From Poriferisphaera corsica (GTDB lineage: Bacteria > Planctomycetota > Phycisphaerae > Phycisphaerales > Phycisphaeraceae): a DNA stretch of 64,000 bases. A program made the position numbers and the translations under genes. Of the stretch, positions 1-31,247 are shown in pieces. The notes beneath the pieces were generated by a model that saw only the letters and a program-made list of their open reading frames with translations, ran no database searches and was not told the origin of the DNA. Where the stretch lies: assembly GCF_007747445.1 (NCBI RefSeq), contig NZ_CP036425.1, forward strand, positions 1,224,175-1,288,174. Reading direction: 5' to 3'. The stretch's first letter is position 1, and each line of letters begins with the position of its first letter.

Positions 1-1
1 G

Positions 2-2519: not shown

Positions 2520-2530
2520 AGCTTGAAATG

Positions 2531-2562: not shown

Positions 2563-2591
2563 TTATGTTTTATTTCAGGTCTAATTGATGG

Positions 2592-3629: not shown

Positions 3630-3661
3630 AAAAACACCCGCGTAAAAACACGAGCGTTTTT
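3630..3661 (-). terminator. Terminator of the second PEP-CTERM gene
   Basis: Arms 3630-3643 and 3648-3661 form a stem of 14 pairs if read on the minus strand, because the three imperfect positions then become G-T wobbles; on the plus strand they would be mismatches. The plus-strand A run gives a minus-strand T run. This supports termination of the gene at 3684-4268. Confidence 0.75.
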
Positions 3662-3683
3662 ATTAGGTGGTGACGCGTTGAAG

Positions 3684-4268: not shown

Positions 4269-4583
4269 CTCGATTTCTCCTCGTGATTGTGTTTGCCTGG
4301 TTGGATATTTTGCCAATAAAAAGAATGATTGCTGGCGATAATCATATGACGTGCGCAGCAAAAATTAATGGCTGTTAAACGATGTTGAAATGGGGGGTCT
4401 TTCTCCTCGCTTGATAGGGTGCAGGCAGCTCTCCTACGGGCATGCCGGCACGTCATTTGATTGAATTTAGCGTATTGTTAGTAAAGTTAATATATATGGA
4501 ATGTGATGCAACTAGGGAAAACAGTTACGAAATGAGCGAGAATTTGTAGATTTGCAAGAATGAGGGCGTTTTCGTGTAGGCAG
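4269..4583. other. Intergenic region
   Basis: No gene supported. It must contain the promoter of the PEP-CTERM gene starting at 4268 and the end of the lipoprotein gene's transcript. A short inverted element GCATGCCGGC lies near 4439; I see nothing else. Confidence 0.35.
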
Positions 4584-6038: not shown

Positions 6039-6292
6039 ATTTAAAGTAGGATTGTTGAAGTGGTGTGGGCTATGGTGGGTTGTGTCAGATTGGGATATTG
6101 GGGGATATATATCCTAACATGAAAATACAAGCCAACGAAGCAGAAGTGCTGTGTGAGGGTTGATTATTGTGGTGGTTGTACGGTTTGAGTGGGCATAAGA
6201 TGTATGACGTGACTTTTCAGGGGCAGGTTTTAATTGGTTTGGTAAAGCAGGGATATTCGTGTAATTGTTGTTTTGAGGGTAAGGAGTGTGTT

Positions 6293-8005: not shown

Positions 8006-8023
8006 TTTTGCTTTGGTGAATGA

Positions 8024-8060
8024 AAAACCCTGACCTACTATCGGAGCTGGTCAGGGTTTT
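8024..8060 (+). terminator. Rho-independent terminator
   Basis: A perfect 12-bp stem AAAACCCTGACC/GGTCAGGGTTTT (8024-8035 and 8049-8060) followed by ATTTTT. It ends the TPR gene transcript and, because of the A tract, may also serve the convergent HU gene. Confidence 0.9.
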
Positions 8061-8173
8061 ATTTTTAACTTTGTCACGTATGGAAAATTGCTTTTCCGGT
8101 GTTTGGTCTGAGCGGAATGCTCAGGCCGGTGTTACAACACAGATAGGTTGTAAGATTAACCGAAGGAGGGGTC

Positions 8174-8581
8174 TTAGCTGACCATTTCCTTGAGGTTCTT
8201 GAGTGGGCGAATTTTGACCTGCTTGGAGGCTGGCTTCGCTTTGAACATCATTTCTTCGCCGGTGAATGGGTTGATACCCTTGCGTGCTTTGGTTGCAGGC
8301 TTCTTCTTGACGATCATCTTAGCCATGCCAGGGATGGTGAAGGTGCCGTGCTTCTTGAGGTTGGCGCCGACAAGTGCTTGCATGCATTCGAAGACGTTTG
8401 AGACGTCTTTCTTGGAGAGATCGGTTGCTTCAGCGATAGAAGTGAACAGTTCGCTCTTGGTTGGAGGTTTGACGCCAGCGCGTGCTTTTGGTGCAGCTTT
8501 CTTAACGACTTTCTTCTTGGTCACTTTCTTAGCGACTTTCTTCTTTGCAGCTTTCTTTTTGGTAGCTTTCTTCTTAGCCAT
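8174..8581 (-). CDS. HU family DNA-binding protein with lysine-rich N-terminal extension
   Basis: A 135-residue nucleoid protein. The HU core occupies about residues 45-130: TKSELFTSIAEATDLSKKDV at the start, the IPGMAKMIVKKKPATKARKGINPFTGEE arm region (given here as family pattern GxNPxTGE), and a C-terminal helix. The first 45 residues are repeats of KKK with Ala, Thr and Val, similar in style to eukaryotic histone H1 tails. The start at 8581 has AAGGAG close upstream; a longer reading frame to 8644 lacks one. It probably compacts DNA as a dimer, with the tail adding charge-based binding. Confidence 0.9.
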   Translation of the reverse strand: MAKKKATKKKAAKKKVAKKVTKKKVVKKAAPKARAGVKPPTKSELFTSIAEATDLSKKDVSNVFECMQALVGANLKKHGTFTIPGMAKMIVKKKPATKARKGINPFTGEEMMFKAKPASKQVKIRPLKNLKEMVS

Positions 8582-9386
8582 GGTGCTCTCCTTGCGGTGC
8601 TTAATGGGTTGTTCTTTTGCGTCCGTGACAAAGTACGCATTCAAAACACTGTAAATAAAGTGTTATTTGGATGATTTATCGCAATTTTGGCTAGTTTGTC
8701 TGTAGTTTTCAATAAGGTTTTTGGAAGAAAAATGATTTTTTTTACTGTATTTGTAGGGTTTTTGGGTTTTTGAGGTGTTAAACGCGGTTTTAGGGGCGCA
8801 TTTCAGCCTGAAAAATAAGGGGTTTGAGATCCCGCAAGCGGGAAAAAGCTACGAAATAAGGGGTAAATGAACGCTGTATTGTGGATATCTGTCGTATGCG
8901 AAGTGAATGATGATGTGATTTTGGGTGTTTGATTGTGCACTAGGCGGAAATGAATTTGTGGTGTTGGAGTCGGATTGTTGGAATGGTGTAGGCATGAGGT
9001 GTAGGTGATCGGAGATTGGATTTGGAAAGGGAGTGAGCCATGATAGGTACTGGATTAGTGATGGGAATGGAGGGAATATGAGGTTGCCAAATTGGCAGGG
9101 TGTAGGGCGGTACGCGGAGGCATGGCAGAGAAAATAGTAGGCGGATGAATAAAAAATGGCGATTTTGGGCTAAAAACGGAGATTTTGTAAGGTAAGCAAG
9201 TTGGCATCGTGTTTGCGGTATATGTGATGAACTTGCGAGCTAGTGCGTAAGCTTTAGGCAGTGAGGTCATGAGTAGGGTGGATACGGGGGCAATGAAGTG
9301 AGCAGCAGAAATGGTTGTTCCGGTGGAACGGTTGCTCAGGAAAACTTAAGAACAAACGATGTTGACAGACATTAAAGGAAAGCATC
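8582..9386. other. Intergenic region upstream of dnaK
   Basis: About 800 bases with no supported gene. It must contain the promoters of the divergent HU gene and of dnaK. I looked for a CIRCE element (TTAGCACTC-N9-GAGTGCTAA) and did not find one. A small hairpin CCCG-CAAG-CGGG lies at 8831-8842 followed by A residues. Confidence 0.5.
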
Positions 9387-11297
9387 ATGGCAAAGACGAT
9401 TGGTATTGACCTTGGTACGACAAACTCGGTTGTAGCGGTAATGGAAGGTGGTTCGCCGAAGGTTTTAATTAACAGTAGCGGTAACCGAACGACGCCTTCG
9501 ATCGTGGCATTTACAGATAAAGGTGAGCGTTTGGTGGGGCAACCTGCGAAACACCAGCAGGTCACAAACCCGACGAACACAGTTTTCTCAGTGAAACGTT
9601 TCATGGGACGTCGCCACAGCGAAGTGCATAGCGAAGAGAAGATCGTGCCATATGGTATCACTGGCGGCGAAGGTGAGCTGGTGAAGGTTAAGGTGGGTGA
9701 TAAGGAATATACGCCTCAGGAAGTCAGTGCGATGATTCTGGGGAACTTGAAGAAGACGGCTGAGGATTATCTCGGTGAGAAGGTTGATAACGCAGTCATT
9801 ACGGTTCCTGCATATTTCAACGACTCACAGCGTCAGGCAACTAAAGAGGCGGGCGAGATTGCTGGCTTGAAGGTTGACCGAATTATCAACGAGCCTACAG
9901 CGGCAGCGCTTGCGTATGGCTTGGATAAGAAAGAAAACGAAAAGGTTGTTGTGTTTGACCTTGGTGGTGGTACTTTCGACGTATCGATCCTTGAAGTGGG
10001 TGATGGTGTTGTTGAAGTACTGTCAACGAATGGTGATACGCACCTTGGTGGTGATGACTGGGATCAGTGCTTGATTGATTATCTTGCGGATGAATTCAAG
10101 AAGCAGGAGGGTATTGACCTGCGTAATGATGCGATGGCGCTTCAGCGTTTGAAAGAAGCCGCTGAGAAAGCGAAATGTGAACTTTCGACAATGCAGGAAA
10201 CGACGGTGAACTTGCCGTTTATTACCGCGACGAACGAAGGGCCGAAGCACTTGCAGATCACGTTGACTCGTTCGAAATTCGAACAGGTTGCGGCTCCACT
10301 CTTTGATCGGATTAAAGAGCCTGTGATGAAGGCGCTTGCTGATGCGAAACTGAATGCTAGCGACATAAATGAAGTGGTCTTGGTTGGCGGTTCAACACGT
10401 ATTCCTAAGGTTGAAGAGATCGCAAAGGGTATCTTTGGCAAGGAACCAAATAAGACGGTGAACCCGGATGAGGTTGTGGCATTGGGTGCCGCGATCCAGG
10501 GTGGCGTCTTGCAAGGTGAGGTGAAGGATGTGTTGTTGCTCGATGTGACGCCGCTGACACTTGGAATTGAAACGATGGGTGGCGTGATGACGCCATTGAT
10601 TCCGCGTAATACGACAATTCCGACTAGTAAGAAGGAAGTGTTCTCGACGGCTGCAGACAATCAAACTGAAGTGACGATTCACGTACTTCAGGGGGAACGT
10701 GAGTTTGCAAATGATAATCGTACGCTTGGTCGCTTTAACTTGGCGGGTATTGCTTCAGCTCCGCGTGGTATGCCTCAAATTGAGGTGGAATTCTCACTGG
10801 ATGCGAACGGTATCTTGAATGTTGCTGCAACCGACAAGGGAACAGGTAAGAGCCAGAATATCGAGATTAGCGGTTCTTCAGGTTTGTCTGAAGACGAAGT
10901 GAGTAAGATGAAGGCGGATGCAGAATCGCATGCGGCCGATGACAAGAAAAAACGTGAGTTAGTAGATACACGGAACCAAGCGGATTCTGTTGTCTTCCAA
11001 ATGAAGCAGCAACTTGAAGAGCATGGCGATAAGGTTGATGCGGCTGTGCGTGGTAAGATTGAATCAGCGATCTCCAATGTCGAAGACAAAGTGAAGGGCG
11101 AAGATGTTGATGCAATCAAGGCTGCATTAGAAGAGCTGAACAAGGAATCTCAGGAACTTGGTAAGGCGATCTATGAATCTTCCGCTGCTCAAGGTCAGGC
11201 TGCTGACGGTACACCAAGTGGTGATGCGGGTGCTGCCGGTGGAGATGATAAGGGTGATGATGATGTGATCGACGCTGAGTATGAAGTGAAAGAGTAG
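9387..11297 (+). CDS. dnaK: Molecular chaperone DnaK (Hsp70)
   Basis: A full-length 636-residue Hsp70. The N-terminal ATPase domain begins [18 protein letters not shown]; further signatures are the phosphate-2 region [16 protein letters not shown] (about residue 193) and [12 protein letters not shown] (about residue 331). The substrate-binding domain follows ([13 protein letters not shown]) with a helical lid and a C-terminal EYEVKE-like end close to the usual [16 protein letters not shown] is well placed before ATG 9387. It stands alone: no grpE or dnaJ is next to it. It folds and refolds cytosolic proteins with DnaJ and GrpE encoded elsewhere. Confidence 0.99.
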
Positions 11298-16336: not shown

Positions 16337-16409
<73 letters not shown>

Positions 16410-16435
16410 TTAAAGTCTGAGGACGACAGAATACG

Positions 16436-17100: not shown

Positions 17101-17235
17101 ATGGCAAAAAGTTCTGGTGGAAAAAGCGGTGGCGGTGGTAAGAGTACTGGTAAATCAAGTGGCAACCCAAACTATCCAAGTACGACAGGGAAGCCATCGG
17201 GTGGAGGACGTGGAAATACTCCTAAAGGCAAGTAA
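17101..17235 (+). CDS. Small Gly/Ser/Lys-rich protein (44 residues)
   Basis: The frame opens MAKSSGGKSGGGGKS and ends in TPKGK; a good ribosome binding site (AAAGGA, 9 bases before the ATG) supports translation. The product is basic, disordered and almost free of hydrophobic residues apart from one NPNYPS segment. It lies about 430 bases before the helicase operon and in the same direction. It could be a small partner of that operon or an independent gene. No family is recognised. Confidence 0.55.
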   Translation: MAKSSGGKSGGGGKSTGKSSGNPNYPSTTGKPSGGGRGNTPKGK

Positions 17236-17488
17236 TCAAAATATAGGCATCATGTTTTCTTGAGTGGTGTATGATGCTTGTTTGTGTGAGTCTGCGTAGA
17301 TGTAATTTGTCTTCTTGCAACCATCTAACATCTGTTTTAGCTCTAAATTTGTTGGCCTAGCGTAAAGAGAAGTGTTCGAACTTCTTATCAAGTTGAATGT
17401 TTACTTAAGTTCTGTTGTAAGTATTGCATTATCAATTCTGTTGGAGAGCGTAAAAGTCAACATGAGTGATAATTTAGGTCTAGTGTAA

Positions 17489-17669: not shown

Positions 17670-19625
17670 ATGGATATTACTTGCGAACAACGTGCTATTA
17701 TTCAGCAAGCAGAAACATCAAGGGCAATGATATTTGCAGGTCCAGGTACAGGTAAAACCGAAATTGTAGCCCGGCGACTAAATCATCTGCTGAAGGACTG
17801 TTCATTAAAACCATCCCAAATTTTAGTTTTATCGTTTTCTAGAGCTGCGGTGAAAGCTTTGGTTAAGCGTATTCAATTGCTGGGTAGCACAGATAGCGAC
17901 ATTATAGAAGATTTGCGGTATCTCTCTGTAAGAACATTTGATTCATGGAGTTTTCGAATTCTTCGCTTTTTGGGTAAAGACCCCAACGATCTTCTTCGTA
18001 ATGGGTTTGATAAGAATATATATGAATTAGTACAGGTTATGTCTGATAGCGGTGCAGACTTGTTGAGTAGTCAATGTGCCAAACAGTTTAAGAACATACG
18101 GCATATTATTGTTGACGAAGCACAAGATTTATCTGGAATACGAGCGGAACTGGTAAAAGAGTTACTTAAAATGCTTGTCTCTAAAAGTAAGCCTGAAAGC
18201 TGTGGATTTACACTTTTAGCAGATCCTAATCAATCAATATATGAATGGGCGTACCGGGAATCAAATGAAAACGGGCTTACTTCTACAGATCTATTTAAGT
18301 GGGCGAAATCTTATTACCAAGATTTGTTAAAAATATTTAAATTAAAAAAAAATCATCGTTCATCATCTAAGATTGCCAAATTTGTTCAAGAAATATCAGA
18401 TTGTATTGATGAATGCGAAACGAACAATGTGAGTCCGCTTCCACTCTTAGATGATATGTTTGCTGATTATATGGATGTAGATGATGGAAATATATTGCAT
18501 CAGCTACCAGATTCAAATGGAGCAAGCACCGCAATATTATGTAGAAGCAATTCTCAAATTATTAACACAGCAATAAAATTGCGAGATAACCAAGAAATAA
18601 ATGGCTTTACATTTAATGTTGGTACACCTCCCAAAAATTTGCCAATATGGATTGCGGCCTTACTGCATCCATTGGAAAGTGATGTTCTTACCCAAAGGCA
18701 ATTTTTTAGAATTGTCGAATGTTATGCTAAGCAACTATTGGGTGGCGAAATCGATAAGCATGCAACATGGCAAAAGTTACTCAGGTTTTCGCGTTTAAAT
18801 GAAGAAGGTAGATCTATCTCGATTAAACGTTTGGCTGAGCGGATAAATTGGCCTGACAGTTTGCCTGATGATGAGAATTTTGATCATAGCCCAGTAGTTG
18901 TTTCTACTGTACATCAAGTAAAAGGGCTGGAATTTGATAATGTCACATTGTTAAATTTCGCTAACAATACTGCGAATAAATTTCAAAATTCTTCAGAACT
19001 TGAAGAAAGTAGAATTCAGTTTGTTGCATTAAGTCGTGCCAGGTTTTCTGTAACACATTTTAATGATGATAATTTGGAAACAAATGATTTTTATAAGCAT
19101 AACTTTCAGCGTCGAACTCGTTCGCGATGGTATAGACGATTGCATTATAAAAAGTCGCATCATCATATTCTTGAAATAGGTCAAGAGGTTGATGTTTATA
19201 AAGAAAGTTTTGTTGATACGCAAGTTTTAGGTAATGCAGATAATGTTAAAAAGTTGCAGCAATTTCTTTTACATAACCATGAGAAAATAATAGGTTGTAA
19301 TATTGAGCTTGTAAGAACTAAACTGCCAGATACAGAAAATTGTTTTGTATATAATATTGTGTTGCAAGGCGATAGTGAATTCGGTGGCAAGGTGGTGGGG
19401 CAAACAACAGAACAATTAACTAAGGATATTCTACGATTGAAGAATAGTCGGCAAACGTTGCCTTATAAAATTTATGATCTTAAAGTGAACGCTATATCAA
19501 CTTTTGCTAGTACACATATCTTAGATTCTCACATACCTAAGCCATGGCAACAAAGTCATCTTTGGCTAGGTGTACAGATACATGGGTTTGGTAGTTTTTC
19601 TACATTTTGGTCAAAACGCAAGTAA
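17670..19625 (+). CDS. UvrD/Rep-like SF1 helicase of the DISARM-like operon
   Basis: A 651-residue helicase. Motifs in order: Walker A FAGPGTGKTEIVARRL (about residue 22), motif II IIVDEAQDLS (about 146), motif III LLADPNQSIYEWAY, motif IV KLKKNHRSS, motif V STVHQVKGLEFDNV (about 413) and motif VI QFVALSRAR (about 450). All SF1A landmarks are intact, so it should be an active ATPase and 3'-5' translocase. The C-terminal 180 residues after motif VI match nothing I know. The start at 17670 has GAGG 5 bases before it. It is the first of four genes spaced by 10, 23 and 23 bases. Known DISARM loci do not have a UvrD protein as a core part. Confidence 0.88.
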   Translation: MDITCEQRAIIQQAETSRAMIFAGPGTGKTEIVARRLNHLLKDCSLKPSQILVLSFSRAAVKALVKRIQLLGSTDSDIIEDLRYLSVRTFDSWSFRILRFLGKDPNDLLRNGFDKNIYELVQVMSDSGADLLSSQCAKQFKNIRHIIVDEAQDLSGIRAELVKELLKMLVSKSKPESCGFTLLADPNQSIYEWAYRESNENGLTSTDLFKWAKSYYQDLLKIFKLKKNHRSSSKIAKFVQEISDCIDECETNNVSPLPLLDDMFADYMDVDDGNILHQLPDSNGASTAILCRSNSQIINTAIKLRDNQEINGFTFNVGTPPKNLPIWIAALLHPLESDVLTQRQFFRIVECYAKQLLGGEIDKHATWQKLLRFSRLNEEGRSISIKRLAERINWPDSLPDDENFDHSPVVVSTVHQVKGLEFDNVTLLNFANNTANKFQNSSELEESRIQFVALSRARFSVTHFNDDNLETNDFYKHNFQRRTRSRWYRRLHYKKSHHHILEIGQEVDVYKESFVDTQVLGNADNVKKLQQFLLHNHEKIIGCNIELVRTKLPDTENCFVYNIVLQGDSEFGGKVVGQTTEQLTKDILRLKNSRQTLPYKIYDLKVNAISTFASTHILDSHIPKPWQQSHLWLGVQIHGFGSFSTFWSKRK

Positions 19626-19635
19626 TCGAGGGCAT

Positions 19636-22600
19636 ATGAAGAAAAAAAATAATAAACAAAAAGCAAGAGATCGCGTTTTTCAGCAAATGAATAGTTTGCT
19701 AGTTGGTCCAATCGAAGAAAATGAAATAATCAAAGATGTGCCTTTAAGTGCAGGGCCAACAGACTATTATCTTACCGGAATTTTATGGCCTAAAAATAGT
19801 GTTGTGGATTCTAGTGAAGATGATAGTAATACTGATGCATGCATGAATGCCGAGGACGGTAACGATTACAAGGATTCAGCGCCAATATTTAACCTCTTTC
19901 GCCCGTCTTCATTCGGTGTAACTTATACGATAGCAAAAGATTGTCAAGAGTATGAAATAATGATTAGCGGTGCTCGCTATGTAAGGACTAATCCTTGTGA
20001 TTTGGAATCCTCTGAGAAAACATCTGGTGAGCATAAACAAAAAGTAGCTACATTTGATTGGGTTCGTGAGCCTTTCTGTTATCGATTGGTGGTTGAGAAT
20101 GAGGCTGTAAATAAAGCGAAGGTTGTGTCTACTTTTACTGATGTAAATGGTGATGAATTAGAAGAACCTTTACTTGAAATGCATATCAAATCAAGAGTAT
20201 TTGATTTGGGTAATGTAGTAACTGTTAGTGTTGTAAATCAGGCAACTGCAGACCCAGAAACGCAGCGTGATGTAAATTGTATTTTTCAGTCTCAGATAAA
20301 AATTCAAGCGTTGCCATCAGAAAAATCAGCGATATTACCTAATTTTAAAACTGATAGATCAGGTGACGATATTGAGTTGCTAATCAATCGAATGCTATAT
20401 AGCAAAAAGAATGAGTATGCGGTGGGGCATGCTGTGGCTGCTGAGTGGTCTGAGCCAGAAGATGGTTTTGTCAGCAGTGTTTGGACTAACTGGATGCCAA
20501 AGCAGCATATTTCATCGGTTACGCCAAAAGGACATTCTACATTACAATTATTTAGTGAAGTATCAGAATCACCGTTGAATTCAGAGTTTATGTCATGTAT
20601 AGAAAATAAAGATCAAATTATTCAGCAATTAAGAATATTTGCAAGAAAGTATGAGGATTGGTTAGAAAAAACATTTGGTGAAAATATTAGCAAAATACAC
20701 CATGAAGCTTTCTCTGAAAATCAAAAATGTGCGCATATTGCATTGGACAGAATCAATGCCGGTATTGATACTTTAGAAGGTAATGATGAAGCATTTAAAG
20801 CCTTTTTATTTACTAATGAGGTTATGAACAATGTGGCCAGCAATCCAGAAACGAAACTAATACCTCGTAGGCTCATATGGAGGCCGTTTCAGATAGCATT
20901 TTTGTTACTAACAATACGTTCTATAGTGGTAGAAGAAGATAATGAGCATGCTATTCCAGATAGAGAAATTATGGATTTGTTGTGGTTTCCCACAGGTGGT
21001 GGGAAAACTGAGGCATATTTAGCACTAAGTGCTTTTGTTATTTTCTATCGACGTATAGCAAACTCCAAGTTAAGAACGCGAGCTCATGTAGATATTATCA
21101 TGAGATATACGTTACGTTTGTTAACGGTTCAGCAGTTTCAACGTGCTGCGGAAATGATTTGCCAAGCTGAAAGTCTGAGAAAACAGAATCTACAATTATT
21201 AGGTAGTGAGCCAATATCATTGGGGCTTTATGTTGGACAAGCTGCGACTCCAAATAAGGTAGTAGATGGTGAGTTTAGCGCAAATAAAAAGTTACAAGAA
21301 GAAATTAAGGAGCAAAATCCTACATCTACGCCAAGGCTTTTGTTGAAATGCCCATATTGCGGCAGAGCTTTAAGGCCAATTGATTACCGTGTTTGCGAGG
21401 ATACTCCATCTATTGAGATTAATTGCTCAAATAAAGATTGTCAGTCATTAAATGAACCTTTGAATATATACACTGTTGATGAGGATATATATCGCGTACG
21501 CCCCTCAATGATCATTGGTACCGTAGATAAAATGGCTCAACTTCCTCGTAAAGAGGAGTTAAGTTTATTGTTTGGAACGCCTGATAATCCGCCTCCAGAA
21601 TTAATAATACAGGATGAACTGCACCTTATTACTGGTCCGCTTGGAACAATGATGGGTCTTTATGAAGCAGCAATAGATTTACTTTCAACTCGTAAATATA
21701 AAATACCAAAAATTATTGGGTCAACAGCTACCATTGGGCAGGCAAAAAAGCAGGTAAAATCATTGTTTAATCGAGACGTAGCTGTTTTCCCGCCTGCAGG
21801 TATTACTTCAGGACACTCATTCTTTGCTGAAGAAGATGCAAATGAGCCAAACCGTATATATAGTGCAATTGCGTCATCGGGACGTAGCCCCAAATTCACT
21901 CTTCAAGCTGTTAGTGCTAGTTTGATAGCGTCAGTATATTGTCTTCTTGAAAAAGATGAATTTGAACAAAGTGATCTCGATCCATATTGGACGCAACTTA
22001 TTTACTTTAATAGTTTAAGAGAACTGGGGGGAGCCAATGTTATGATGCGAGATGACGTTCGTCGCTCAGTGAAATTCTACTGTCGTCGTTTAAATTGTGA
22101 TCATCAACGTGAGCTAGAACAAAATCCAATTGAATTGACAAGTAATGTTTCATCAGCAGATATTCCAGCCGCGCTAAATCAATTAGAAATTAGTTTGGGC
22201 GGTAATCCCTATGAAGGAGAGCCTATAGATATTGTATTAGCTAGTAATATGATTTCAGTTGGTGTAGATATCCCACGATTGGGAGCCATGGTTGTAAATG
22301 GCCAACCTAAAATGACTTCAGAATATATCCAAGCAACATCAAGAATTGGACGTGGTTTACCAGGGCTCGTAGTTTCTTGTCTTAACGCCTCGAGGCCCCG
22401 TGATATATCACATTTTGAACATTTTAAAAACTATCATCAGACTTTGTATAAACAAGTTGAGGCTGCGAGCGTTACGCCTTGGTCGTCACGAGCAAGAGAT
22501 AAAGCTTTGCATGCTATATTCATAGCATTAGTCCGCCACTTGTTACCATATATGTCAGGTCGCTTCAATGCCGCGGACTTTAATCCTAATGATTGCGATG

Positions 22601-22899
22601 TAATAAAAATACGAGACTGGATTGTTGAGCGAGCTAATAATTCTAGCCAGAATAAGACAATCAAAAATGAAGTATATAGTTCACTTAATCAAATAATTAA
22701 TGACTGGACGCATATAGCAGATTTAATCAACAAATCAAATCGTAAGCTTGAATACTGGGCAACTTTTGACCGTCGTAATAAACCCAATAATCCATACTTA
22801 ATGCGTAGTGCAGAGGATCAATTCGAAGATTCAAAAGTTTGGCGAACACCAAATTCAATGCGAGAAGTTGAACCGACCGTGTTTTATTCTATTTGGTAG
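19636..22899 (+). CDS. drmA: DrmA-like SF2 helicase
   Basis: A 1087-residue protein. The first 430 residues have no clear domain. Then come SF2 motifs: LLWFPTGGGKTEAYLALSAF (Walker A, about residue 447), a Cys cluster CPYCGRAL...CSNKDC (about 571-605) likely to bind zinc, DELH in IIQDELHLITGP (about 659), GSTATIG, and ISVGVDIPRLGAMVV with QATSRIGRG (about 875-905). Size, DELH box and the adjoining DUF1998 gene fit DrmA, the helicase subunit of DISARM, which with DrmB loads on DNA with a 5' single-stranded end. The start at 19636 follows GAGG; it lies 10 bases after the UvrD gene. Confidence 0.82.
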   Translation: MKKKNNKQKARDRVFQQMNSLLVGPIEENEIIKDVPLSAGPTDYYLTGILWPKNSVVDSSEDDSNTDACMNAEDGNDYKDSAPIFNLFRPSSFGVTYTIAKDCQEYEIMISGARYVRTNPCDLESSEKTSGEHKQKVATFDWVREPFCYRLVVENEAVNKAKVVSTFTDVNGDELEEPLLEMHIKSRVFDLGNVVTVSVVNQATADPETQRDVNCIFQSQIKIQALPSEKSAILPNFKTDRSGDDIELLINRMLYSKKNEYAVGHAVAAEWSEPEDGFVSSVWTNWMPKQHISSVTPKGHSTLQLFSEVSESPLNSEFMSCIENKDQIIQQLRIFARKYEDWLEKTFGENISKIHHEAFSENQKCAHIALDRINAGIDTLEGNDEAFKAFLFTNEVMNNVASNPETKLIPRRLIWRPFQIAFLLLTIRSIVVEEDNEHAIPDREIMDLLWFPTGGGKTEAYLALSAFVIFYRRIANSKLRTRAHVDIIMRYTLRLLTVQQFQRAAEMICQAESLRKQNLQLLGSEPISLGLYVGQAATPNKVVDGEFSANKKLQEEIKEQNPTSTPRLLLKCPYCGRALRPIDYRVCEDTPSIEINCSNKDCQSLNEPLNIYTVDEDIYRVRPSMIIGTVDKMAQLPRKEELSLLFGTPDNPPPELIIQDELHLITGPLGTMMGLYEAAIDLLSTRKYKIPKIIGSTATIGQAKKQVKSLFNRDVAVFPPAGITSGHSFFAEEDANEPNRIYSAIASSGRSPKFTLQAVSASLIASVYCLLEKDEFEQSDLDPYWTQLIYFNSLRELGGANVMMRDDVRRSVKFYCRRLNCDHQRELEQNPIELTSNVSSADIPAALNQLEISLGGNPYEGEPIDIVLASNMISVGVDIPRLGAMVVNGQPKMTSEYIQATSRIGRGLPGLVVSCLNASRPRDISHFEHFKNYHQTLYKQVEAASVTPWSSRARDKALHAIFIALVRHLLPYMSGRFNAADFNPNDCDVIKIRDWIVERANNSSQNKTIKNEVYSSLNQIINDWTHIADLINKSNRKLEYWATFDRRNKPNNPYLMRSAEDQFEDSKVWRTPNSMREVEPTVFYSIW

Positions 22900-22922
22900 T
22901 TTAACGAATTGGAGTTAATAAA

Positions 22923-24797
22923 ATGTGCCCAGTACCAACTGTTGGAAAAGCAAGACGCTCACAATCAGTATTTACGTACGGTATAGGTTCAATTGTTGAT
23001 ACGCCTAAAGGTTCCTTTATGCCGATGGGGATACCGTTTATGCAAATGCAATGGGATCGCATCCCGCATGCAAGCCGCGAATCAATGACAGTCCGGGAAC
23101 CGAGATTAAGTCATTTACTTGGTGTTGATGAATTTTACTCTATGCCTGTACCGAATGACCGGCAAATTGAAACATATGGAACGAGGGTTCAGCGTTCTGT
23201 AACGATACCTGTAAAAAGATTCCCTGAATGGTTACAGTGCACTGGATGTAACCGACTTGGAAAGGTTGGCAATCCATTTACAGAAGAACCAGATGGACAG
23301 GTGTCATGTGCAAACGAAAAATGTCGCCATAACGATGCGCACGCTGTGCCAGTCAGATTTCTTACCGCATGTAAACATGGTCATATCGATGATTTCCCAT
23401 GGATTCAATGGTCGCATTCCGATAATTTCGAAGAGTGTAAGAATCCATGTTTGTATATGCATTCTTACGGTCAAAGTGCGGCAATAAGTGACCTGTATGT
23501 ACAATGCAAGAATTGTGGTGCAATTAAAAATTTAGGAGATATTTTTCAACCCCATACAATGGCTCGTTTCCGCTGTAGGGGCATTCGTCCATGGCTAGAT
23601 GATCGTGACAATGAAGAATGTGATGCGCAACGAGAAACATTACAGCGAGGTGCATCAAATGTTCATTTTCCCGTTTCTGCTTCGATGTTATCAATACCAC
23701 CCGCTTCAGATGCCATATCTAAAATATTAGAAAAGCATTGGGCGTTGTTAAAAAATGCGCCTGAGTCCGCTTGGGAACCTATGTTGCAAGGTTTTATTGA
23801 TACTCAAGGAATAAATATTGATCACACAATGGCAATTAAATGGATGAAAAGCCGTCTAGATTTAGATAATCTAAATGCTCCGATATCTGAATCGAATGCA
23901 CGCCATCAGGAATATTTAGCATTAAGTATTGATAACAAAGCCGATTCTATTGCTGGTGTATTGCCGGATTTTGAAAATAAAGTCATGCAGCTCCAACAGC
24001 CATACTTAGAATATATTGATTTAGTTGGTGCTGTGAAGCGTTTGCGTGAAGTACGTGCTTATTGTGGTTTCTGTAGAATAAATCCAATTTCAGTACCGGT
24101 TGAACAGATTCCTCTAGCTGTTCAGCAAGGATTGATAACTCCCATTTCAACACAAAACACATCTTGGTATCCGGCTATTGAAGTACGAGGCGAGGGAATA
24201 TTTTTTCGTTTTACTGAATCAGCAGTAATTGATTGGGAATCCAAACAAAAAGTAGTTGATAGGGCTGCTGAAATAAATCATATATTTGCTCAACAATGTT
24301 CAGAACGGGGAGCCGAACAATCCTACCCGATAACACCTAGGTTACTATTAGTACATTCTTTTTCACATGCATTAATACGAAGAATTTCATTAGATTGTGG
24401 ATATTCATCAGCTAGCTTGAGAGAGCGATTATATGTCTCTAATCCAGATGCTCCACCGGATGAATCTATGGCTGGTGTATTGATTTATACTGCGTCACCA
24501 GATTCGGATGGTAGTCTAGGTGGATTGGTTGATTTAGCAGATTCAATTACTGTTGGCAATCTTATACAGGATGCAATTGAAGATGCAATGTGGTGTGGAA
24601 ACGACCCCGTATGTTCAGAAACTGATCCGCAAGTGCGCGGAGACAGATTAAATGGTGCAGCTTGCCATAACTGTATGCTTGCATCAGAAACATCGTGTGA
24701 AAAATACAATCGTGAATTAGACAGAGTAATGCTAACGGGTAAAAGTTCAGGAATATCAGAAGAAGTACAAGGTTATTTTGCTGATTTGCTTAAATAA
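22923..24797 (+). CDS. drmB: DrmB-like protein (DUF1998)
   Basis: A 624-residue protein. N-terminal Cys pairs (CTGCNRLG...CANEKC at about 105-135, CKNCG at about 193) suggest zinc binding. The C-terminal DUF1998 region has HSFSHALIRRISLDCGYSS (about residue 477), GVLIYTASPDSDGSLGGLV and the four-Cys end CHNCMLASETSC. DUF1998 is the defining domain of DrmB, which forms a complex with DrmA in DISARM. GGAG lies 8 bases before the ATG. The gene is 23 bases after drmA. Confidence 0.85.
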   Translation: MCPVPTVGKARRSQSVFTYGIGSIVDTPKGSFMPMGIPFMQMQWDRIPHASRESMTVREPRLSHLLGVDEFYSMPVPNDRQIETYGTRVQRSVTIPVKRFPEWLQCTGCNRLGKVGNPFTEEPDGQVSCANEKCRHNDAHAVPVRFLTACKHGHIDDFPWIQWSHSDNFEECKNPCLYMHSYGQSAAISDLYVQCKNCGAIKNLGDIFQPHTMARFRCRGIRPWLDDRDNEECDAQRETLQRGASNVHFPVSASMLSIPPASDAISKILEKHWALLKNAPESAWEPMLQGFIDTQGINIDHTMAIKWMKSRLDLDNLNAPISESNARHQEYLALSIDNKADSIAGVLPDFENKVMQLQQPYLEYIDLVGAVKRLREVRAYCGFCRINPISVPVEQIPLAVQQGLITPISTQNTSWYPAIEVRGEGIFFRFTESAVIDWESKQKVVDRAAEINHIFAQQCSERGAEQSYPITPRLLLVHSFSHALIRRISLDCGYSSASLRERLYVSNPDAPPDESMAGVLIYTASPDSDGSLGGLVDLADSITVGNLIQDAIEDAMWCGNDPVCSETDPQVRGDRLNGAACHNCMLASETSCEKYNRELDRVMLTGKSSGISEEVQGYFADLLK

Positions 24798-24820
24798 TTA
24801 ACTATACGGAGCAATTGATA

Positions 24821-26548
24821 ATGGCTTATATGGTTCCAAGAGAGGTTAAAAGCGAAACTGTAAGTCGTGCAGAGCGTATGCTTTTTACAAGATTTCGACG
24901 AGAGCTACCAGACAATTATATCGTACTGCATTCTCTTGGGTTGAAAAATCATAGTACAAAAATATGGGGAGAATGCGATTTTGTCGTGATAAGCCCTTAT
25001 GCAATTCTTGTACTTGAAGTAAAAGGTGGAAGAATTAATTTTGTAAACGGGGAGTGGATATTTACGAACCGCAATGGGACTAATTTTGTTAAATCAGAAG
25101 GGCCATTTGAGCAAGCAAAATCAGCAATGTTTGCTGTTAGAGAAATTGTGAATCAGCATTGCTCTAGTCAAGCTATTGTAGGTTATGGCGTGATGATGCC
25201 AGATGATAAGTTTATTAGTGATTGTATCGAGATTGAACAGCAGGTCTTATGGGATATTCGTAACAAACAATCTTCATTAGATGTTTATTTGAAACAGATT
25301 ATCGACTATTGGCGTCATCAATATCAGAAAAAGTATAATGCAAACCCTGTTAATCTTACTGCAAAACAGATAGATGAGATCCGCAGAGCATTGAGGCCGG
25401 ACATAAGGTCAGCCAGAACATTAGATAGTATGTTGTGTCAAGTTGAATCTGAACAAGTAGAGCTGACAGAAGAACAAATAGATGTGTTGACAAGGATTGA
25501 TAATAATTCGAGAACTTTGGTTTCTGGATCCGCTGGAACAGGTAAAACTATATTAGCTATGGATAAAGCTATCCGGCTAGCGGAAAGTGGAAAAAAAACG
25601 CTGTATGTATGTTACAATAAATTACTTGGTGATCATTTAAATAATACTGCAAAAGACATTGATAATTTAACTGCAATTTCATTACATTCATGGTTTATGT
25701 CCGTGGTAAAGAATTCTAATTTAGGGCATCACTTAGTTAATTGTGGAGATGAAAAATATTTTTCAGAACAGTTGCCACGGCTTTATATGGATGCATTAAC
25801 ACAGTTAGATGAAAGCTATATATTTGATTGTTTGATAATAGACGAAGCCCAAGATTTGTTGACAGAAAGTTACTTTGATGCGTTGGATCTAACACTAAGA
25901 AAAGGCATAAATTCTGGGGAATGCCATATATTTATGGACCCTTTGCAGAATATATATTCTCAGAGCAATGATGATATTCTAGAAGAGTTAAATGATACAG
26001 GTTTTGTTAAATATGAGCTATCAGTAAATTGTCGCAACACAAAACAAATTGCAGTAGCGGCATCCATTGTTTCGGGATTAGATGTTTCCACAAACAAGGC
26101 TGTAGAAGGACAGAATTGCGATGTAGAATTTGTAGACGACTTAGACTGGCAGGATAAAATTGAGAAAATTATTAGTAAATATATAAAAAATCACATTGAA
26201 GTGAAAGATATTATTATTTTAGGGCCTAGAAAATTAGAAAAATCATCACTTGCTAACATGGATCGTATTTACAAAATTAAAATACGAAATCTCAATCAGA
26301 AGTCAGAATTACAGAGCAAAAAGTATATCGATTATTCTACCATTCATTCGTACAAAGGATTGGAACGACGTGCTGTTGTTGTAATTGATATTCAAGATTT
26401 AAATGATAGTTATTTCCAACTTTTACACTATTGTGGTCTTACTAGAGCTCGCAGTATGATGACTGTTCTAGTAAATAAGAGAGAAAAAGAAGTATATGAT
26501 GAATTTGCCCGTCAATATGGTATTCGTCAATCTTCGAAGATTAATTGA
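24821..26548 (+). CDS. NERD nuclease-domain / UvrD-type helicase fusion
   Basis: A 575-residue protein. Residues about 15-120 are a NERD domain: GECDFVVISPYAILVLEVKGG has the D and ExK of a PD-(D/E)xK nuclease, and the W and Q that follow also fit. From about residue 225 come SF1 helicase motifs: SGSAGTGKTILAMDKAI, LIIDEAQDLL (about 341), IFMDPLQNIYS, VNCRNTKQIA, STIHSYKGLERRAVVV and GLTRARSMM. It occupies the downstream position where DISARM usually has the PLD protein DrmC, so it may provide the nuclease activity in its place. This is inference; the domains themselves are clear. Confidence 0.88.
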   Translation: MAYMVPREVKSETVSRAERMLFTRFRRELPDNYIVLHSLGLKNHSTKIWGECDFVVISPYAILVLEVKGGRINFVNGEWIFTNRNGTNFVKSEGPFEQAKSAMFAVREIVNQHCSSQAIVGYGVMMPDDKFISDCIEIEQQVLWDIRNKQSSLDVYLKQIIDYWRHQYQKKYNANPVNLTAKQIDEIRRALRPDIRSARTLDSMLCQVESEQVELTEEQIDVLTRIDNNSRTLVSGSAGTGKTILAMDKAIRLAESGKKTLYVCYNKLLGDHLNNTAKDIDNLTAISLHSWFMSVVKNSNLGHHLVNCGDEKYFSEQLPRLYMDALTQLDESYIFDCLIIDEAQDLLTESYFDALDLTLRKGINSGECHIFMDPLQNIYSQSNDDILEELNDTGFVKYELSVNCRNTKQIAVAASIVSGLDVSTNKAVEGQNCDVEFVDDLDWQDKIEKIISKYIKNHIEVKDIIILGPRKLEKSSLANMDRIYKIKIRNLNQKSELQSKKYIDYSTIHSYKGLERRAVVVIDIQDLNDSYFQLLHYCGLTRARSMMTVLVNKREKEVYDEFARQYGIRQSSKIN

Positions 26549-26690
26549 TTCTTTGTAGTTAAAAACGTTGTTAGAATTATTTTTGCTAAGATGAGATGTA
26601 GGCTTTGAAAATCATAATAACATAGTTGATAAAAACTTAATTACCAGTGAAATAATATAAAGAATCTAAACGAGTGTTGTAATAATTTTA

Positions 26691-27399
26691 GGGGCTGTCA
26701 TAGATAACTAGGTTAAATTTTCTCTAACCCATTGCCGTAGCTGGATTAACTTCTCAGTTGGCTTCGGGTTGTTGAATCGCCACTCATACTCCTTCAGGAA
26801 CAGGTGGAAAAGCTCCTTCGGGATGCCGTTGAACTTACGCATGTGACGCTTAGCCTAGTTCCAAAAATTCTCAATCCCGTTAATGTGATTCTTACTGTCA
26901 GCAAATAATTCACTGTGGTTTATTCGGTAGTGTTTGAATTCTGAAACATCTAACATATCGTAAGACGAAAGCGAATCGCTGTACACGATGCTGTCGGGTT
27001 TGATCTTGCTTTGCATGATCGGCATCAGCGTCTTCGCTTGAGCATTCGGGATCATCTTCGTAAATACCTTGTTTTTACGCTTTAAAATACCAAACACCGG
27101 TATCTTACCTGCAGCACCTCGGCCGCGTTTGCCTATGCGTCTGCCGCCGAAGTAACTCTCATCAACTTCGATTTCACCCGAAAGCAAATCTTCATCTTCA
27201 GTCGCGTCGGTGATGATCCCACGCAAACGGCGATAGTAAAACGCTGCCGTATTGCGATTCACGCCAATTAAATCTGCCGCACATCGCGCTGTCGTGCCCG
27301 CCACAAAATGCTCGATCAGACGATCCTGCTTCTGCCTGCTCAGCCGACTTTTCCTCATGCTGTCCCTTATAACTCAAATGAGTTATCTATGACAGCCCC
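26691..27399 (-). mobile_element. IS1595-family insertion sequence, 709 bp, with target duplication
   Basis: Perfect 19-bp terminal inverted repeats GGGGCTGTCATAGATAACT (26691-26709 and 27381-27399) flank one transposase gene. The 8-bp direct duplications TAATTTTA at 26683-26690 and 27400-27407 are identical, so insertion is recent. It separates the end of the DISARM-like operon from the end of vsr and provides the stop codon now used by vsr. Confidence 0.95.
26708..27358 (-). pseudogene. IS1595-family transposase interrupted by an amber codon
   Basis: The reading frame starts at 27358 with MRKSRLSRQKQDRLIEHF, has a zinc-less HTH-like N-terminus and the DDE-type catalytic region EIEVDESYFGGRRIGKRGRG, then YSDSLSSYD and NHINGIENFWN. 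At 26855-26857 a TAG interrupts the frame. Beyond it the same frame continues AKRHMRKFNGIPKELFHLFL to a second stop at 26708, which is the normal end of this family (usual text FWNQAKRHMRKFNG). A CAG to TAG change at one Gln codon explains it. Unless the codon is read through, the enzyme loses its last 48 residues. Confidence 0.9.
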
Positions 27400-27790
27400 T
27401 AATTTTATTAGTTAGTATTTCTGTGTTAGCGGTTTCGCATTCCCAGATGATGATTACTCGCCAACCCAAATCTTGGATCTGTTTGGTTCGCAGCCTGTCT
27501 CTTTTAATAGTTTTGCTAAATTTATTTTGCCAAAAATGAATATGAGATTTGGGTTTATAAGCTAGTTTGCAGTCGGCATGTCTATGCCAATAACAACCAT
27601 GAACGAAAATCACAGTCTTGTATTTGGGTAAGACAATGTCAGGTTTCCCAGGTAAATCTTTGCGATGAAGCCTGAATCGATACCCCATTTTGTATAGTAA
27701 AGAACGTACAATAAGCTCAGGCTTTGTGTTTTTGGAACGAATCCTTGACATGTTCCAGCTTCGGTGTTCGGGGCTAATGCGATCTGTCAT
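27383..27790 (-). CDS. vsr: Very short patch repair endonuclease Vsr, C-terminus altered by IS
   Basis: A 135-residue nuclease that nicks 5' of the T in T:G mismatches arising from deamination of 5-methylcytosine. Signatures are MSRIRSKNTKPELIVRSLL, LPGKPDIVLPKYK (catalytic Asp) and IFVHGCYWHRH. It lies 3 bases after the C5 methyltransferase and reads the same way, the classic dcm-vsr pairing. The last five residues and stop come from the inserted IS: now KIRGCHR, where the uninterrupted sequence would read KIITTLV. The length is the same by chance, so function may be intact. Confidence 0.93.
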   Translation of the reverse strand: MTDRISPEHRSWNMSRIRSKNTKPELIVRSLLYKMGYRFRLHRKDLPGKPDIVLPKYKTVIFVHGCYWHRHADCKLAYKPKSHIHFWQNKFSKTIKRDRLRTKQIQDLGWRVIIIWECETANTEILTNKIRGCHR

Positions 27791-27793
27791 TGT

Positions 27794-29392
27794 TTAATTC
27801 AGAATTCCAGTATCATTAAGTAACTGAAAAACAATATCAGCAATTTGGTTAGCAAGCAGTGGAGGTACAGCATTGCCTACTTGCCCATATTGTGATGTTC
27901 GAGGTCCACAGAAAAAATAATTGTCCGGGAACGTTTGTAGCCTGGCTGCTTCGCGAACAGTCAAGCTTCGGCATTGAGCAGGGTCGTGGTGTATATAGTA
28001 GTGCCCATCTTTTGATATATGGCTAGTAATTGTAGTTGATGGGCGGTTGCCTAACTGAACACGAAAACGGTCGGCAAAAAGACTGCCGTTAAGCGCACTT
28101 TTTACGTTGTCATGGTTTGGCAATAGATACTTAGGAAAGTCGGCTAAGACGGGCGAGCGTTTGTGTGCCGCACCAAAACTGGACACAAAAAGATATCGAT
28201 AGATATCTTTTACAATGTGCCCACGTGTTGTATGATTCCATGCGCCTTCTAGACGATCATCTAAAAACCAATCTTTGTTGTGACCAATTGACAAGTTATA
28301 TTCTACAAATTCACCACCTCGGTCATGCTTGGGAATGGTGATTTTCTCGAGTGTTGTTTTCAGCTTACATGCAAGATTTTCGTCTGAGCTGTTAAGTAAA
28401 TCAGAAAACCATTTGCGGTTTTGGATTTCTTTTATGTGTTGATACCAGTTAGTGCCGGAATCTACTTCTTTAGACAGTCCAGAGCGTAATTTAGGCAGTC
28501 CCTGCAAGATACTTTTGGTATTGATTTGTTTTTGTGGAGTAAGTTTATTGGGAGTTATATGTCCAAGAAGATCTTTACGTACGCCTAAAATGATAACCCT
28601 ATGTCTAGCCTGTGGGATACCATAGTCTTCCATTTTGACTACATAATCTTGGAAATTTTCAACCCTGTAATTTCCTTTTTGTGTTAATGAAAATATTTCA
28701 TATTTAGATTCATTCTTTGTACTTGGTGCGGGTCGAACGACTCTTTTTTCTCGCTTTAACGCATCTGTTGGATTTTTTAAATCAGCTACTATGCGTTCGA
28801 ACATTCTCTTGTTTTTAACCGTCGCCGAAAGCAGACCTTTGACATTTTCCATGACAAAGATTGCTGGTTGATGTTCGGCAATAACGTGCAGATATTCGAC
28901 ATATAGATACTGCCTTTTATCGTCATCGGGTTTATAACTTTGATTTCCTTTGTTTCTGGATCGTCCTACTAATGAATATGCTTGGCATGGTGGTCCACCA
29001 ATTAATACCCAAGGTTTTCTTTCTCCAATTGATGCTGCAATACGTTTTCTAACATTGTTGTGCTTTTCTTCGCCCAGTTCTGCTTGCCATGTTTCTGAAG
29101 AAGCTTGTTCGGCTTCTTTACTAAATGTGTTGTATAGTTCTTTTAAACGCTCAGGTAATAAGCGGCTTGTATCGCTAAGGATGTTGTAATAATCGTTTGG
29201 TACTGAATTCCCAAATTGTCTAAAAAAGCTACGAAGCTGCAATGTCATATGAGCTCGTTCATCTTTTTCGATTGATATTGCAATATTAAATGGATTGCCG
29301 CCCTCGCTATTACGATATGCGCTAAAACCTTCACCTAGGCCACCGGGGCCTGCAAATAAATCTACTATCGGGATGTTTAATCGTTCCGTCAA
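27794..29392 (-). CDS. C5 cytosine DNA methyltransferase
   Basis: A 532-residue enzyme that methylates cytosine at C5 using S-adenosylmethionine. Motif I is IVDLFAGPGGLGEGF (residues 8-22), motif IV GGPPCQAYSLVGRSR (about 130, catalytic Cys), motif VI FVMENVKG (about 178), motif VIII QARHRVIILG, motif IX SRL-type LTVREAARLQTFPDNYFF and motif X QVGNAVPP. The start is TTG 29392, with AGGA 8 bases before. A linked Vsr means its product is prone to C-to-T change, as with Dcm (CCWGG). Class 2 DISARM has a C5 methylase of similar size (DrmMII), so it may be the self-marking enzyme of the operon at 17.7-26.5 kb, although it lies on the opposite strand. Confidence 0.93.
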   Translation of the reverse strand: MTERLNIPIVDLFAGPGGLGEGFSAYRNSEGGNPFNIAISIEKDERAHMTLQLRSFFRQFGNSVPNDYYNILSDTSRLLPERLKELYNTFSKEAEQASSETWQAELGEEKHNNVRKRIAASIGERKPWVLIGGPPCQAYSLVGRSRNKGNQSYKPDDDKRQYLYVEYLHVIAEHQPAIFVMENVKGLLSATVKNKRMFERIVADLKNPTDALKREKRVVRPAPSTKNESKYEIFSLTQKGNYRVENFQDYVVKMEDYGIPQARHRVIILGVRKDLLGHITPNKLTPQKQINTKSILQGLPKLRSGLSKEVDSGTNWYQHIKEIQNRKWFSDLLNSSDENLACKLKTTLEKITIPKHDRGGEFVEYNLSIGHNKDWFLDDRLEGAWNHTTRGHIVKDIYRYLFVSSFGAAHKRSPVLADFPKYLLPNHDNVKSALNGSLFADRFRVQLGNRPSTTITSHISKDGHYYIHHDPAQCRSLTVREAARLQTFPDNYFFCGPRTSQYGQVGNAVPPLLANQIADIVFQLLNDTGILN

Positions 29393-29592: not shown

Positions 29593-31071
29593 CTAGCTGG
29601 CGTTTTTGTTGTTTAATCGAAAAATGTCCATTACCGGCGAGTTTAAAGCAGGTAATGCTTCTACCGCACTCGCGACATCGAGTAGTGCCGGGTCGGTATA
29701 GACGTTCATCGTCAGTTCAATACTGCTGTGGCGCATGGCTGCCATCGCGGTGCGGGGCGCGACGCCTGCTTTGGCGAGATGGGTGCCGAAGGTGTGGCGA
29801 AGGGCGTGGATGTCTACGACGCGGCCTCGCTCGTCGTACTTGGGGATGCTGGCTGCTGTAAGATCGCGGCCAAATACGCGGATCATGTCTTGGGTGATTT
29901 TAAAGAGCGGTGTGTTGTGAGGCAGATGTAATGTGCGGTGCTTTTTGTGAAGCATTTGAATGTATGACCTTAGGTGCTGGGCAAGATCTGCTCGTAGTGG
30001 TATCATCGCGCCGCGTCCTGCTTTCTCGTCTTTAGCAAGAAGCTCAAGATGCGGTGTACGCTCATCCAGATAGACTTGCCCGAGCGTAATACTGGCAAGT
30101 TCACTCTTGCGAAGGCCTGTGTAGATCAGCGTGCGATAGATGAGTGAACGTTCTTTACCGAGGAAGGCGAGTTTCTTGGCTTGACGCCTTCTACCATCGC
30201 AGAGATGCTCCATGCCGCGTTCATAAGCTTCTTCCAGATTCTCCCACGTCAGTTCAGCTTTCGTCCAATTGCTTCTGCTTTTGGGCTTGGTTTTGTCTTT
30301 GATCACGCTTTCGCGGCCAAACTCAGCAATGGGTCTGATTTCTGCGGTTCGAAGTAAGCGGTAGATTTCATCTTCAGTTAGTGCGCGACGTATTCGCCGC
30401 TTATCGTTGTATTCATCTGCTTTGTGCAAGCGGTTAAGCGGGTTCACGCTGAGCCTACCAGTATCGACGCACCAGTTGCAGAAGGCTACAATCGCTGCGC
30501 GGTAGTGGTTGATCGTGCTGCTACCTATATGCGCTGAATCTTGATTGCCCATCCAGCGTTCCATGGCTTCACGGTTGATGTCTTGAAGACGTTTGAAGTG
30601 GCAAGCAGATGTGATGCGTTCAAGTTGCTGTTTGCGGTTACGTTGGTGTTGCTTTGAGATGCTTTTACCGCGTACGGTTTTGATTTTCAGGTGTTGCAGG
30701 TATGCGGTGATGTGATCTTGGATCGTCTGATCTGCATAGATCGATTGGCGATGCTGTTCGGGCGTGAAGATGCCGGATTTCACGTGCTCAACGCGTTTAA
30801 GTAGTTCAGCCAGTACATGCCTTGCGGATTGCTCATCTTTACAACCAGTTGACTTGATACGTTCAATGCCATCAGCATCGTTGTAGCGGGCGTACCACGT
30901 TGGACTGTGGCGAAGCAGTTTGTATTGGCCATTACGCCCAATGGTGACTGGTTCGTAGCGCGTGTGGCCGCGACGGTCGATCCATTTGGCAACGGGCTTG
31001 CCATCCTGTTCGATGATCTCACAGTGTTTGGGTAACGGCTGCGTGTAAGATTTCTTGTAGACGTTGGCCAT
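29593..31071 (-). CDS. int: Tyrosine recombinase (phage integrase)
   Basis: A 492-residue site-specific recombinase. The N-terminal half has a SAM-like core-binding domain (about residues 110-210). The catalytic domain shows TGLRKSELASI (Arg I), HALRHTFGTHL (H-x-x-R) and RHSSIELTMNVYTD (His and nucleophile Tyr). The start at 31071 (MANVYKKSY...) has GGAGGAG 8 bases upstream, better than the ATG two codons earlier. It is longer than most integrases because of about 60 basic residues between the two domains. Together with the excisionase upstream it marks the left side of the prophage. Confidence 0.95.
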   Translation of the reverse strand: MANVYKKSYTQPLPKHCEIIEQDGKPVAKWIDRRGHTRYEPVTIGRNGQYKLLRHSPTWYARYNDADGIERIKSTGCKDEQSARHVLAELLKRVEHVKSGIFTPEQHRQSIYADQTIQDHITAYLQHLKIKTVRGKSISKQHQRNRKQQLERITSACHFKRLQDINREAMERWMGNQDSAHIGSSTINHYRAAIVAFCNWCVDTGRLSVNPLNRLHKADEYNDKRRIRRALTEDEIYRLLRTAEIRPIAEFGRESVIKDKTKPKSRSNWTKAELTWENLEEAYERGMEHLCDGRRRQAKKLAFLGKERSLIYRTLIYTGLRKSELASITLGQVYLDERTPHLELLAKDEKAGRGAMIPLRADLAQHLRSYIQMLHKKHRTLHLPHNTPLFKITQDMIRVFGRDLTAASIPKYDERGRVVDIHALRHTFGTHLAKAGVAPRTAMAAMRHSSIELTMNVYTDPALLDVASAVEALPALNSPVMDIFRLNNKNAS

Positions 31072-31247
31072 AGGCACTGCTCCTCCCCCGGATCCCCCCC
31101 GAAGTTGGCTTACTGGGAGATATACATGAATCAGTACATCACAGTGGGCGGTATTTGACGCCTTAAATCAAGTGGTTTTGTGGATGTGGGCAAACAGATA
31201 GATGTGTGCAGGATTGATGTTTCGATTTACGTAAAACGATCTTATTC

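Follow-up and report, generated by a model that had tools for sequence, protein, structure and literature searches.

The 64,000-nucleotide stretch of the Poriferisphaera corsica genome analyzed here (contig NZ_CP036425.1, positions 1,224,175 to 1,288,174; hereafter the window) contains an operon of four forward-strand genes encoding a UvrD-like superfamily 1 (SF1) helicase, a DrmA-family superfamily 2 (SF2) helicase, a DrmB-family protein with a DUF1998 domain and a NERD nuclease fused to a second SF1 helicase. Genes for a Vsr-type endonuclease and a C5 cytosine methyltransferase follow on the other strand (Table 1). An earlier note on this DNA, made from the letters alone, had described these six genes as a DISARM (defense island system associated with restriction-modification) variant, and all six are present where it had placed them. 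Our analysis adds the remnant of an IS1595-type transposase before the Vsr gene, and the position of the whole locus inside a prophage. We believe, with a probability of roughly 0.6, that the locus is an anti-phage system carried by a prophage, and that it represents a lineage of DISARM-like systems with SF1 helicases and without DrmC.

Table 1. Features at the defense locus of the window and at the left end of the prophage that carries it (aa, amino acids).
Feature	Position	Strand	Evidence
attL, 46-bp exact direct repeat over the 3' half of tRNA-Gly(ccc)	16366-16411	+	second copy at window-equivalent 72843-72888
UvrD/PcrA/Rep-type SF1 helicase, 651 aa	17670-19625	+	Pfam UvrD-helicase 2.1e-28
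DrmA-family SF2 helicase, 1087 aa, short form	19636-22899	+	PADLOC DrmA 4.6e-224
DrmB-family protein, DUF1998/MZB zinc-binding domain, 624 aa	22923-24797	+	PADLOC DrmB 1.5e-90
NERD (PD-(D/E)xK) nuclease fused to SF1 helicase, candidate effector	24821-26548	+	Pfam NERD 8.6e-14 and helicase domains
IS1595-type transposase remnant, outside the defense system	26855-27358	-	Pfam DDE_Tnp_IS1595 5.1e-26, profile positions 2-123 of 153
Vsr-type endonuclease, paired with the methyltransferase	27383-27790	-	Pfam Vsr 4e-32; NCBIfam vsr 150 bits, cut-off 97.85
C5 cytosine methyltransferase, DrmMII-like, putative exchangeable accessory	27794-29392	-	best PADLOC match DrmMII 2.7e-90
Tyrosine integrase of the carrier prophage	29593-31077	-	Pfam Phage_integrase 3.5e-15; PHROG integrase 1.5e-40

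The four core genes are spaced by 10 to 24 bases. Known motifs are intact across the locus: Walker A, Walker B and motif VI are preserved in DrmA and in both SF1 helicases, and the Cys cluster of DrmB, the NERD nuclease residues E53-D55-E68xK70, the PCQ motif of the methyltransferase and the FVHGCYWH motif of Vsr are all present. In the whole genome, DrmA and the NERD-helicase of this type each occur once. The transposase remnant, whose reading frame stops short of the end of the transposase domain, splits the operon from the Vsr and methyltransferase genes. A small Gly/Lys/Ser-rich reading frame (MAKSSGGKSGGGGKSTGKSSGNPNYPSTTGKPSGGGRGNTPKGK; 17102-17236, forward strand) lies 5' of the UvrD gene.

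The locus is carried by a prophage that spans about 56.5 kb and is inserted in tRNA-Gly(ccc), whose attachment-site repeat was found by searching with the 3' end of the tRNA and whose right end lies 8.9 kb past the window (L152). Between the two att copies are genes for the integrase, a Sak4-like recombinase, a helicase, a primase, a terminase, a portal protein, a head protease and a tape-measure protein, and the defense operon sits between attL and the integrase gene.

The window DrmA aligns with the Serratia DrmA (PDB 7s9v_A) at an E-value of 3e-141, and the window DrmB with the Serratia DrmB (7s9v_B) along its full length at 1.4e-86; judged by sequence comparison, the two are homologs of this structurally solved pair. 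DrmB also clears the broader NCBIfam model DrmB_fam (526 bits, cut-off 240). As the DrmA alignment begins at residue 232 of the Serratia protein, the window DrmA lacks the EVE-like domain that has been described at the N terminus in class 1 (PMC12458937). An acidic stretch, SSEDDSNTDACMNAEDGNDYKD, lies directly N-terminal of the aligned part, at the place of the Serratia trigger loop (residues 176-232, PMC9142583), and by analogy may act as such a loop. Among the locus proteins no DrmC or PLD nuclease was found with Pfam, PADLOC, NCBIfam or a purpose-built DrmC hidden Markov model, no DrmE with Pfam, PADLOC or NCBIfam, and neither the DrmD SNF2 helicase nor the DrmMI adenine methylase with Pfam or PADLOC, in agreement with the earlier note's description of a DrmAB system without DrmC and DrmE. 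The locus has the DrmB with DUF1998 expected of DISARM and the DrmMII-type C5 methyltransferase expected of class 2, though the latter is on the opposite strand and does not co-vary with the core genes; it has neither a DrmC beside DrmB, nor DrmD and DrmMI of class 1, nor DrmE of class 2.

A DrmA match was found in 43 of 392 genomes of the same phylum, and DrmC was present in 15 and absent from five of the 20 same-phylum DrmAB loci that we fetched. Those five and the window form one side of a branch with support of 100/99 for DrmA and 100/100 for DrmB. With the alignment of this clade as query, GTDB species genomes and IMG/VR yielded 97 further loci; viral contigs gave no match when scanned with a single DrmA protein and 17 loci when scanned with the alignment, and no full-length relative was found in the phage collection. 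In the resulting DrmA tree of 111 rows, a branch with a Shimodaira-Hasegawa approximate likelihood ratio test (SH-aLRT) value of 97 parts 40 rows, 36 with DrmC and four with neither DrmC nor the helicase genes, from 71 others. The latter comprise 33 with UvrD, 21 with both UvrD and NERD, nine with NERD upstream, two with NERD downstream, five with none of these and L131, which bears both UvrD and a PLD nuclease. In the DrmB tree all 36 DrmC rows likewise fall on the same side of a split (SH-aLRT 86), joined there by the same four rows and the helicase-type locus L088. The window has UvrD upstream and NERD-helicase downstream of DrmA-DrmB, and falls on the helicase side of both trees, its nearest rows (L051, L052, L053 and L056) joining it with SH-aLRT values of 99 for DrmA and 100 for DrmB. 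As the loci were fetched with queries from the window's own clade, classical DISARM is under-sampled and these proportions are no census. The grouping supports the view that DrmAB without DrmC is a recurrent lineage, rather than the product of a local loss.

The four-gene order singled out by the earlier note recurs across distant phyla. UvrD-DrmA-DrmB-NERD was found in Paracoccus, Sphingomonas, Rhizobium, Yoonia, Acetobacter, Defluviimonas, Lysobacter and Asticcacaulis, and also in Bryobacterales, Dehalococcoidia, Balneolia, Sinomonas, a Bacillota genome, Gastranaerophilales and the phage contigs L132 and L135. Its range takes in Acidobacteriota, Pseudomonadota, Chloroflexota, Actinomycetota, Bacillota, Balneolia and Gastranaerophilales, with plasmids and phage contigs besides. 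Other arrangements are UvrD-DrmA-DrmB without a detected NERD-helicase, many of these loci belonging to Actinomycetota, and NERD-DrmA-DrmB.

The core genes also appear to be inherited together. Over 20 four-gene loci, pairwise protein distances correlate at 0.75 for UvrD and DrmA, 0.68 for UvrD and DrmB and 0.68 for DrmA and DrmB, and those of NERD at 0.62 with UvrD, 0.61 with DrmA and 0.54 with DrmB (Mantel p 0.001 for all six). Median gaps between adjacent core genes across loci range from -2 to 1.5 nt; that between DrmB and NERD is 1.5 nt, and at most 150 nt in 21 of 22 loci. Methyltransferase distances show no correlation with those of the core genes (-0.07 to 0.02, p 0.40-0.67), and those of Vsr are intermediate (0.24-0.56). 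Different C5 subfamilies may be represented among the methyltransferases of the various loci, and exchange would itself lead to such a mix. An obligatory core role for the methyltransferase is disfavored by the uncorrelated distances and by the finding that the gene is not enriched in comparison with DrmC loci (Fisher p 0.17; for Vsr, p 0.28), and we regard it as a probable exchangeable accessory module.

The fold model of the NERD-helicase (predicted local distance difference test, pLDDT, 89.2) has SLFN11 as its best PDB match. E68-V69-K70 is invariant in 33 relatives, and E53 and D55 are kept in at least 90%. A NERD-helicase of this family lies directly beside DrmAB in 33 helicase-type loci and in none of 37 DrmC loci. 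A scan of the helicase-type loci for the HKD motif, aimed at hidden DrmC genes, gave 19 candidates, of which L131 alone matched the DrmC model and the Pfam PLD domain, most of the remainder being judged by motif context rather than by individual domain scans; L131, which has no NERD, is the single locus of the helicase lineage to bear DrmC. The earlier note's proposal that NERD replaces DrmC agrees with this mutual exclusion beside DrmAB, though NERD is not universal among the loci.

The other proposed substitution, of UvrD for DrmE, has fared less well. The fold model of UvrD (pLDDT 86.8) matches UvrD structures over residues 1-489, with Z-scores reaching 32.5; its C-terminal beta-rich domain (about residues 480-651) received no identity from the fold search, whose match list was filled by the helicase core. 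Homology of either UvrD or the NERD-helicase to DrmE was looked for by profile comparison, which showed no similarity (the DrmE profile being built from three sequences). DrmE-family proteins do occur in three loci of the same lineage that lack UvrD (L036:10186-11763, L137:5698-8307 and L138:4616-7174; the last clears the NCBI model DrmE_fam and fails the NCBI DISARM DrmE cut-off), so that UvrD and DrmE may alternate in position. Positional alternation is as far as the earlier suggestion can be carried, as nothing indicates equivalent function. Locus L137 also has a gene for a FokI-cleavage-domain protein downstream of DrmB.

A possible mechanism can be drawn from the published biochemistry of DrmAB (PMC9142583) and the gene anatomy of the window. 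DrmAB binds 5'-overhang DNA and needs its ATPase, the ATPase is lower with 5-methylcytosine DNA, and DrmAB works without DrmC (PMC9142583). DrmA-DrmB, held inactive beforehand by a loop in the DNA channel, would recognize foreign DNA, load on it in single-stranded or forked form, translocate and open it; the UvrD-type 3'-5' motor and the NERD-helicase, perhaps in a complex with it, would then work on the opened DNA and extend the opened region. The PD-(D/E)xK nuclease of NERD, driven by its own SF1 motor, would cut or degrade the DNA, which is the job proposed for DrmC in DISARM. The C5 methyltransferase would mark self DNA and Vsr repair deaminated 5-methylcytosine, both as an exchangeable module outside the core. 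A broader proposition, which we advance tentatively and at somewhat less than even odds, is that such loci constitute a third widespread class of DrmAB immunity, in which two SF1 motors and NERD form a RecBCD/AdnAB-like degradation machine acting on DrmAB-opened DNA, with self-marking by interchangeable methyltransferases.

The condition on which the earlier note's claim would have failed, with DrmA and DrmB outside the Drm clades or a DrmC nearby, leaves the homology standing, but the window DrmA, at 928 bits, falls just under the equivalog cut-off of 950 of the NCBIfam model DISARM_DrmAS (the DrmA of L039, a DrmC-type locus of the same phylum, reaches 1210 bits on the NCBI DISARM equivalog model). 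Several observations weigh against a DrmC-less DISARM-like system in which all four genes take part. The large DrmA and DrmB trees were quick ones with short dividing branches, and their root is not known. Many UvrD-DrmA-DrmB relatives show no NERD-helicase in the stretch fetched, indicating that NERD is not an obligate part. A plasmid search by NERD-helicase, independent of DrmA, gave 13 records in 11 distinct loci; by neighbor inspection six of the 11 lie beside DrmA and DUF1998 genes and about five stand away from DrmAB, so that the NERD-helicase is a module also found outside DrmAB loci. Functional data on any member of the lineage were not found in the literature.

Some of these points would suit two neighboring units, a UvrD-DrmA-DrmB defense module and a self-sufficient NERD-helicase gene that often travels along with it, as would the occurrence of NERD-helicases as fusions or partners in other PADLOC defense systems. 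We consider this unlikely, however, given the near-contiguous DrmB-NERD junction, the correlation of NERD distances with those of all three other core proteins, and a sister group that lacks this UvrD and has NERD immediately upstream of DrmA. It is somewhat less probable still that the locus is an ordinary class 2 DISARM from which this strain has lost DrmC and DrmE, and which stands by chance beside unrelated helicase genes of a defense island. The adjoining DrmMII-like methyltransferase is consistent with such a remnant, but these helicase genes are also the neighbors of DrmAB in distant phyla, at near-zero gaps, the four genes co-vary, and DrmC-less loci group together on both trees. A prophage module for DNA repair or for replication and recombination might also be imagined, as YprA-family helicases include DNA-repair enzymes (PMC12458937), the set of motors and nuclease resembles RecBCD/AddAB, and the genes sit in a prophage. 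This seems to us very improbable: the phage already encodes a Sak4-like recombinase, a helicase and a primase of its own, DrmA and DrmB group with defense-system models, and relatives on plasmids, phage contigs and chromosomes adjoin genes for Vsr, C5 methyltransferases, McrC-like proteins and other defense functions, including a DarT-family gene downstream of NERD on an Azospirillum plasmid (L154:15069-15671) and a UG19-type reverse transcriptase gene directly downstream of DrmB in Anaerosalibacter (L071:13999-16107).

Other genes were seen beside the relatives. In Actinomycetota, L075:2441-7150 and similar genes of 1550-1650 aa, directly upstream of UvrD-DrmA-DrmB, encode a large protein that resembles TmtA in its N-terminal part and ends in an SF2 helicase. 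An Hsp70-like gene (Pfam HSP70 1.9e-38) immediately precedes UvrD in a Bacillota metagenome-assembled genome (L103:5161-6597), and a gene similar to it in size and motif lies upstream of UvrD in Anaerosalibacter (L071:5103-6572). Beside an alphaproteobacterial UvrD-DrmA-DrmB (L057:510-6466) is a divergent pair of about 1050 and 1010 aa, one an SF2/SNF2-type helicase and the other without a Pfam match; pairs of like size occur in L058-L060, L062, L070, L085, L132, L142 and L157. On plasmid relatives the NCBI product names are generic (helicase-related, DUF1998, UvrD-helicase and NERD proteins). At the start of the window, the GC skew of positions 1-10000 is very strongly positive (0.31 to 0.52, taken in 2-kb steps) and much higher than in the remainder.

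The SF1-helicase/NERD lineage has no name in the resources searched, and a full-text search, mostly outside subscription journals, found no paper naming UvrD-DrmA-DrmB-NERD. The Bell 2025 preprint mentions "many uncharacterized DISARM-like" classes, which very likely include this lineage; the gene set itself is not described in the available portion of its main text. Under definitions requiring DrmC with DrmD or DrmE, as in PADLOC, a sizeable DrmAB group would go unreported as complete DISARM. DISARM can do without its nuclease DrmC, which is often missing (PMC9142583), and this leaves open how the system destroys DNA; a lineage that regularly links DrmAB to a different, motor-fused nuclease makes the question directly testable.

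With DISARM classes 1 and 2 (PDB 7s9v/7s9w; Bravo 2022, PMC9142583) the window shares a DrmA and a DrmB that are homologous and encoded side by side in separate genes, and a nearby DrmMII-type methyltransferase. It differs in lacking DrmC, DrmD and DrmE, in the UvrD-type helicase gene that precedes DrmA-DrmB and the NERD-helicase gene that follows, and in its DrmA, which lacks the EVE-like N-terminal domain and scores just short of the NCBI DISARM cut-off. SF1 helicase and NERD-helicase modules are common to Gabija GajB, RTasNERD-Hel and C3a187 (PADLOC models), but the window has neither the GajA nuclease nor a reverse transcriptase, and the likeness is limited to the helicase module. The helicase core and OB-CON-DUF1998 region that TALON, ARMADA and BRIGADE carry in one protein are here divided between DrmA and DrmB, and no BrxHII, PglX, TPR-CSD, TBP or deazaguanine genes were found among the locus proteins scanned with Pfam and PADLOC. 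ARMADA type II (Bell 2025) resembles the window in that its operon pairs a helicase of the YprA family with a UvrD helicase similar to GajB. It has in addition BrxHII-like and PglX-like genes, and its helicase is fused to a nuclease of the Vsr type; none of these arrangements occurs here. TALON (Bell 2025) likewise combines a YprA-family helicase and a NERD-type nuclease; its helicase, however, is ARMADA-like and fused to the DUF1998 part, and is accompanied by TPR-CSD and TBP genes, whereas the window has DISARM-type DrmA and DrmB from two genes and a NERD domain fused to an SF1 helicase.

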